Positions 4,371 to 5,187 of a stretch of 59,123 nt of DNA are shown one piece after another. This stretch comes from Rubritalea profundi. Lineage in GTDB: Bacteria; Verrucomicrobiota; Verrucomicrobiia; Verrucomicrobiales; Akkermansiaceae. The stretch lies in assembly GCF_002954445.1 (NCBI RefSeq), contig NZ_MQWA01000001.1:3010730-3069852 (forward strand), written 5' to 3'. The stretch's first letter is position 1. Each line of letters starts with the position of its first letter. Under the pieces are notes generated by a model that did not search any database, had not been told where the DNA came from, and was given only the letters and a program-made list of their open reading frames with translations. A program made the translations under genes and the position numbers.

Positions 4371-4501
4371 AGAAAAGTTATTCAATAATAGTGCCAAATA
4401 AGTGTTGCGCAGACGAGATATCTAATGAAGATGCGCGCTCGAAGTGAGTTGCCATACTTAATGGCGCTCGCATCTGATTTAATCAACAAAGGAGAAACGT
4501 T

Positions 4502-4807
4502 ATCGCAGCAAAACCAAGAAGAGGCGGTCGTCGCCCAAACAGAAGACCCGGCGGAGGAAGAGGCCGTTTCAAGAGAAAAGTAGTAGACGAACGCGAGGAT
4601 AAGTCTGTTGAGCTTGAAGGAATAATCAAGGTTGTTCTTGCTGGCACTATGTTCAGAGTTGAGCTTGCTGGTGGCCACGAAGTATTGGCGCACATTTCAG
4701 GTAAAATGCGTAAGCGTTTCATTCGTCTAGTTATTGGCGATCGAGTACGTATGGAGATGTCTCCTTATGATACTACGAAGGCTCGGATCACCTTCCGTAT
4801 TGGTTAA
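4502..4807 (+). CDS. infA: Translation initiation factor IF-1, apparently starting at AUC
   Basis: The reading frame ending with TAA at 4805-4807 encodes the IF-1 S1-type OB fold (KSVELEGIIKVVL, then LAGGHEVLAHISGKMRK, then DRVRMEMSPYDTTKARI) after a basic Arg/Gly/Lys-rich extension of about 30 residues. IF-1 binds the 30S A site with IF-2 and IF-3. An in-frame TGA at 4475-4477 and no ATG, GTG or TTG until deep inside the OB fold leave no ordinary start. A strong Shine-Dalgarno AAAGGAG (4488-4494) sits seven bases before ATC GCA GCA AAA, exactly where a normal ATG would be, so ATC is taken as the start codon. An ATG-to-ATC sequencing error would give the same picture. Confidence 0.85.
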   Translation: MAAKPRRGGRRPNRRPGGGRGRFKRKVVDEREDKSVELEGIIKVVLAGTMFRVELAGGHEVLAHISGKMRKRFIRLVIGDRVRMEMSPYDTTKARITFRIG

Positions 4808-4836
4808 TTTAGAGGATTTTTTTTAGCTCAGTGCTC

Positions 4837-5187
4837 ATGCTTAGGTACTATAGTTACAAAGGATGTGGCACTTGCCGTAAGGCCAAGAAGTGGTTGGCTG
4901 AAAATGCTGTCGAGGTGGAGGAAATCGCGATTCGCGAGACTCCACCCTCAGTCGACGAACTGAAGTTTGCATTGCAGAGTGGTCACACTCTCAAAGCACT
5001 TTTTAATAGCTCTGGCGGAGACTACCGTGAGCTGGGGATGAAAGACCTCCTTCCTACATTGAGCGATTTGGAAGCGCTGGAGGTGCTTCATAGCCGAGGA
5101 AACTTGGTTAAGCGTCCATTCCTAGTTTCGCCAAAAGGGGCCTTGGTTGGTTTCAAGCAGGCTGAGTGGGAGCAGTTTTTTCTGTAG
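4837..5187 (+). CDS. Spx/ArsC-family thioredoxin-fold protein
   Basis: A 116-residue thioredoxin-like protein of the ArsC/Spx/YffB family. The redox motif is C-G-T-C at residues 10-13, directly after the first strand (YYSYKG), and the conserved RPFLV segment follows about residue 90. Family members are glutaredoxin-coupled arsenate reductases or, as in Spx, redox-responsive RNA polymerase partners; the sequence does not decide between them. I start at the ATG (4837); the in-frame GTG at 4831 is an alternative. It lies 29 bases after infA and may be cotranscribed. No arsenic-resistance genes are nearby, which argues against a dedicated arsenate role. Confidence 0.75.
   Translation: MLRYYSYKGCGTCRKAKKWLAENAVEVEEIAIRETPPSVDELKFALQSGHTLKALFNSSGGDYRELGMKDLLPTLSDLEALEVLHSRGNLVKRPFLVSPKGALVGFKQAEWEQFFL

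Follow-up and report, generated by a model that had tools for sequence, protein, structure and literature searches.

The infA gene of Rubritalea profundi, which encodes translation initiation factor IF-1, raises the question of where its translation starts and of what a start codon outside the AUG/GUG/UUG set would mean in such a gene. The window (the whole stretch of DNA that was analysed, 59,123 nucleotides) lies in contig C1 of a genome of 4.17 Mb in 4 contigs, and the infA frame occupies window positions 4478-4807, ending with TAA at 4805-4807 (Table 1). After the upstream TGA the frame reads TTT AAT CAA CAA AGG AGA AAC GTT ATC GCA GCA AAA, in which a spacer of 7 nt (4495-4501) separates the Shine-Dalgarno (SD) sequence from ATC. 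The initial annotation had recognized this frame as IF-1, and the 101-residue product counted from ATC bears this out, with scores of 86.7 bits (E 7.5e-25) against TIGR00008 (cut-off 61.15), which places it within IF-1, and 72.7 bits (E 1.9e-20) against Pfam PF01176 (cut-off 30.2). Two further statements, that AAAGGAG stands seven bases before ATC and that ATG, GTG, and TTG are absent between the upstream stop and the OB fold, also proved accurate. The first canonical codon, ATG 4649, sits 57 codons past the upstream stop and is too late to serve as the start because of its position inside the OB fold.

Table 1. Coordinates of features at the infA locus of Rubritalea profundi, as window positions.
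Feature	Position	Strand	Basis
In-frame stop TGA delimiting the infA frame at its 5' side	4475-4477	+	Sequence, translation
Shine-Dalgarno sequence AAAGGAG of infA	4488-4494	+	Sequence
Predicted infA start codon AUC	4502-4504	+	No in-frame ATG/GTG/TTG 5' of ATC; conservation in the family; downstream constraint
infA CDS, 101 codons + TAA, as predicted	4502-4807	+	Translation, TIGR00008, PF01176
N-terminal extension of IF-1, basic, Gly/Arg/Lys-rich	4505-4597	+	Translation
OB fold of IF-1, residues 33-99	4598-4798	+	TIGR00008 match
Earliest in-frame canonical codon of infA, ATG	4649-4651	+	Within the OB fold

Judged on the window alone, the missing canonical start is not strong evidence. ATG, GTG, and TTG make up 6.0% of codons in the coding frames of the window, and 57 codons without one would be expected with P ~0.03; conservation was therefore needed to decide where infA starts. 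The window contains 39 long frames; in 38 of them an ATG, GTG, or TTG appears no more than 23 codons after the stop, and only one has an SD match of at least 6 nt at any of its first six candidate starts.

We searched for IF-1 in 195 genomes of the family Akkermansiaceae and 125 of the phylum, with matches in 191 and 124, respectively, and in a contig collection, from which 80 loci were kept out of 418 confirmed; among these 80, the nearest named IF-1 relatives were Rubritalea metagenome-assembled genomes (MAGs). The 240 infA loci that were read, a part of all matches, included 235 with a frame and five without (L281-L283, L287, L288), and four weak IF-1-like frames (L284, L285, L286, L289) were excluded by score. 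Removal of identical frames left 144 from the family and named near relatives. With AUC, AUA, and AUU denoted collectively as AUH, and with the AUH position called by residue patterns picked after the frames had been read, these comprised 66 AUH frames (53 ATC, 7 ATA, 6 ATT), 77 ATG frames, and one undecided frame (L100). A family genome handle was available for 97 of the 143 called frames, and the other 46 (9 AUH, 37 AUG) came from named records alone, with a presumed affiliation.

The comparison of relatives strongly supports the AUC start that the initial annotation had proposed, and the outcome in which all relatives carry ATG was not observed. All 11 genomes read from the genus of R. profundi have AUC or AUA as the infA start, and AUH starts were identified in 58 of the 98 Akkermansiaceae genomes read and in 13 of 16 genera, exclusively in 12 and mixed with ATG in g3; genera g7, g10, and g13 have ATG only. 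Neither GUG nor UUG was found as an infA start in these 98 genomes. AUH is thus the commoner state than AUG among the Akkermansiaceae infA genes read, and the non-canonical start is kept among relatives, as in IF-3-controlled genes, although the remaining 40 genomes have AUG, which indicates that an AUH device is dispensable. A twelfth genome of the genus, G058, yielded just a weak IF-1-like match below the cut-off (L281, 41 bits), as did another genome of the family, G005 (L282, 23 bits); in both, infA may be absent from the assembly or replaced.

Named records show both states. The infA gene starts at ATC in an Akkermansia muciniphila record (NZ_FXYA01000135.1), the protein of which is one residue off that of genome G038 in g3, and at ATA in Persicirhabdus sediminis KCTC 22039 (L040, frame identical to L011). 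It starts at ATG in Akkermansia glycaniphila Pyt, Haloferula rosea, Haloferula luteola, and Luteolibacter marinus, and also in at least four MAG records titled A. muciniphila (L056, L080, L090, L094), two of which agree with g10 and g13 genomes; such titles thus look unreliable.

No AUH start of infA was detected among 50 loci from other families of Verrucomicrobiota (L162-L211), which comprised 34 ATG and 16 GTG starts, those of L185 and L192 having been read by hand. An ATG or GTG was available close to the OB fold in these frames, farther out in L192. AUH loci of the family have their start 28-115 codons 5' of the OB fold, as compared to 5-13 codons in most loci of other families, most of which are missing the basic, Gly/Arg/Lys-rich N-terminal extension; L192, from the same order, has a long one. 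The GTG loci were L163, L166-L170, L173-L175, L177, L181, L182, L184-L186, and L188, and GGAG or GGAGGT stands 8 nt before GTG in the 15 of them that were called by script. AUG and GUG in other families suggest that AUH was gained near the base of the Akkermansiaceae.

The frames themselves point to the AUH codon as the translation start. After the in-frame stop, 46 of the 66 distinct AUH frames contain no ATG, GTG, or TTG before AUH is reached; the stop lies at most 10 codons 5' of AUH in 36, and a single sense codon separates the two in 16. We compared pN/pS upstream and downstream of AUH in three groups of loci that had been chosen by their first residues, which makes codons +1 to +5 circular and codons +6 to +11 the fair comparison. 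For the 12 upstream codons versus codons +6 to +11, pN/pS was 0.96 versus 0.60 (25 loci), 1.02 versus 0.00 (11 loci), and, weakly, 1.01 versus 0.72 (7 loci). Codon -1 is variable and codon 0 is always AUH, the latter partly fixed by the choice of groups. These observations place the onset of constraint on the protein at the AUH codon and, together with the conservation of this codon, make a start of infA at AUC in R. profundi near-certain.

We then considered infC, which encodes the partner factor IF-3. In R. profundi, infC has an ATA start after AGGAGGA (L142:407-409; G000:C1:3653106-3653108, outside the window). Among 50 family genomes, the infC start was AUH in 45 and GTG in five, all of them in g3; five g10 genomes have an ATG 14 codons 3' of the infC AUH that is a possible alternative start. 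For 43 genomes with both genes, both starts were AUH in 27, infA was ATG and infC AUH in 11, infA was AUH and infC GTG in four, and neither was AUH in one (G002, infA ATG and infC GTG).

A phylogenetic tree of these 43 genomes was reconstructed from the infA OB fold and infC (284 columns); 20 of its 40 inner branches are well supported, and several long branches were flagged. Two switches between AUH and AUG were counted. The third base of the infA start changed six times, four times within AUH and twice to or from AUG. On the same tree, the third bases of the four conserved Ile codons changed 11, 13, 12, and 14 times, and 35 fourfold columns changed 13-23 times (mean 18). It is the low total, and nothing else in these counts, that argues for constraint on the infA start, since the 4:2 split is also expected from equal mutation; the counts are blind to gain versus loss of AUH.

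What might such a start do? Codons that lack a 3' G (AUU, AUC, and AUA) are discriminated against by IF-3 (PMC4611024), the AUU start of infC is under IF-3 autocontrol, Streptomyces infC starts at ATC, and sigR, with a GTC start, is repressed by IF-3 (PMC5472188). More IF-3 in vitro led to a smaller full-length share at AUU with the CAU initiator (PMC10158994). Initiation quality control is described as a joint action of IF-1 and IF-3 (PMC13345285, preprint), and IF-1 promotes movement of the C-domain of IF-3 in the direction of the P site and makes the complex of the 30S subunit with the factors more stable (PMC8266586). On this basis, fMet-tRNA on AUC would pair with the first two bases and mismatch the third, giving weak 30S complexes on infA mRNA that IF-3 would preferentially dissociate, and IF-1 would make this selection more stringent by keeping IF-3 stably positioned close to the P site. 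A shortage of IF-3 and IF-1 relative to 30S subunits would allow initiation at AUH, and thereby production of both factors; an ample supply would repress the synthesis of both. A strong SD would compensate for the poor codon and allow enough basal IF-1, the net effect being a throttle combined with homeostatic control of IF-1 as well as IF-3.

Our favored reading, to which we assign a probability of roughly 0.6, is that AUH in infA is a weak start kept by selection, which holds down IF-1 synthesis and is subject to IF-3/IF-1 proofreading, as AUU is in infC. The initial annotation had raised a feedback or throttling device; the idea is plausible given AUH in infC, the rarity of AUH changes, and many strong SDs, and its regulatory step, feedback control of IF-1 via the AUC start, is one that we infer. 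It is possible, at somewhat less than even odds, that AUH in infA and infC together form one cross-controlled IF-1/IF-3 circuit, with the sensor shifted to IF-1 in A. muciniphila-like species. Four g3 genomes (G028, G038, G047, G055), the IF-1 of which is similar to that of the A. muciniphila record, combine infC GUG with infA AUC, so that in such genomes IF-1, not IF-3, would report initiation stringency. If the favored reading is true, start-codon proofreading governs a second core initiation factor in a family to which an intensively studied gut bacterium belongs, and joint homeostasis of IF-1 and IF-3 is testable via a one-base change.

By sequence logic, infA would work like infC and sigR. 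As with infC of Escherichia coli (AUU) and Streptomyces (AUC), infA is an initiation-factor gene with a conserved, IF-3-rejected start of the AUH class (PMC5472188), but IF-1 is not the main codon discriminator, and such control of infA is a proposal. Streptomyces sigR likewise has an IF-3-sensitive non-canonical start outside infC (PMC5472188), although it is a sigma factor gene with GTC and its repression has been demonstrated. The GUG infA genes found in other families of the Verrucomicrobiota (16 of the 50 loci read) are also non-AUG and in the same phylum but differ in having a codon that is canonical for IF-3 and a short IF-1 N-terminus. Eukaryotic eIF1 autoregulates through a poor start context; like the infA product as proposed here, it takes part in start selection and has its synthesis limited at its own start. 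However, it is the context rather than the codon that is poor, and eIF1 is no homologue of IF-1. The nearest precedent on infA itself is that of chloroplasts, an IF-1 gene with a non-AUG, low-efficiency UUG start (PMC9845219), a change of which to AUG raises translation ~300-fold (Hirose et al. 1999, via PMC9845219); UUG, however, is a 3'-G codon accepted by IF-3, in an organelle of an unrelated lineage. In a literature search of open-licence papers, with subscription ones mostly missing, no paper describing AUH as the infA start was found, and a search of PMC4245832 and PMC4626046 for chloroplast infA starts gave no relevant AUH example.

The chloroplast case, in which a weak start merely lowers IF-1 (PMC9845219), also illustrates the strongest alternative, namely a static throttle in which AUH, whether or not a strong SD accompanies it, sets a suitably low IF-1 level and feedback does not arise as IF-3 activity is near-constant. 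Conservation of the infA start codon on the tree is compatible with this, and the 11 of 43 genomes that combine an AUH infC with an AUG infA imply that coupling of IF-1 is unnecessary. We nevertheless consider a purely static setting less likely, since the codons used (AUU, AUC, and AUA) are those that IF-3 rejects, and GUG or UUG, which could throttle in the absence of such rejection, went unused throughout the 98 genomes.

A second alternative is that AUH is a historical relic that arose by drift, became tolerable thanks to a strong SD, and has been retained with little significance. The distribution of SDs is in keeping with this: an SD of at least 4 nt was present in 43 of 66 AUH frames versus 1 of 77 AUG frames, and AAGGAG was similarly positioned in 37 of the 66 AUH loci versus none of 77 AUG loci, a contrast to be read as a pattern rather than a test because the loci are related. 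The division of changes within AUH and to or from AUG likewise matches neutral expectation. The third-base total, however, is far below that at either set of comparison sites even though one mutation restores AUG, and we regard a relic as improbable. The SD is absent in 23 of the 66 AUH loci, many of these with the context TTTTAAGTT ATC, which led us to consider a leaderless mRNA for these loci.

That infA starts elsewhere, either in a longer frame upstream or at an ATG in another frame followed by a frameshift (e.g., the 52-codon ORF at 4425), is very improbable. An ATG, GTG, or TTG does occur farther 5' in frame in 20 of the 66 AUH loci, but the nearby stops, the pN/pS of ~1 upstream and lower downstream in all three groups, and the unconserved codon -1 beside codon 0 argue against it. 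An error of sequencing or assembly at 4502-4504 has a negligible probability, given the agreement of independent genomes, including the single-contig assemblies G028, G038, and G146, and AUH in the named Persicirhabdus strain. RNA editing into AUG was set aside, since no deamination is known to convert AUC or AUU to AUG.

If infA does start at AUH, gene prediction is affected: prediction based on ATG, GTG, and TTG misplaces the starts of Streptomyces infC and sigR (PMC5472188), and it may do the same for infA in Akkermansiaceae genomes. We screened the R. profundi genome for other genes of this kind with the motif AAGGAGN{4,7}ATHGC, which gave 35 matches versus 31 for a reversed control and which misses AUH genes with a different SD, infC itself being outside the pattern. 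Among the 30 of 35 matches that were read, infA alone qualified as a frame of at least 60 codons with an in-frame stop at most 10 codons upstream and with ATG, GTG, and TTG absent nearby.

A dedicated, odd initiator tRNA was considered and rejected; three CAU anticodons, including that of the initiator-like L342, were found among the 30 of 43 tRNA matches read. The initiator tRNA (L342:1498-1574, minus strand; also L350-L375) has A-U at 29:41, G-C at 30:40, and G-C at 31:39, in a position where three G-C pairs have been termed highly conserved (PMC10486304). This A-U, G-C, G-C stem was present in all 26 genomes read of 30 searched, and it occurs with AUH and AUG infA alike, so the tRNA variant does not track the infA start.

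Hairpins in the leader 5' of the infA start seemed frequent by eye, but a hairpin specific to AUH loci was rejected, the mean folding z (-75 to -13) being -1.18 in 66 AUH loci versus -0.87 in 77 AUG loci. The sequence TTGCG recurs, by eye, ~60-100 nt 5' of the infA start (window ~4405-4432; L003-L010, L016-L026) and may be a candidate -35 part of a promoter. On the same strand 3' of infA, an ArsC-family (glutaredoxin-like) gene occupies window positions 4831-5187 (PF03960, E 9.5e-17).
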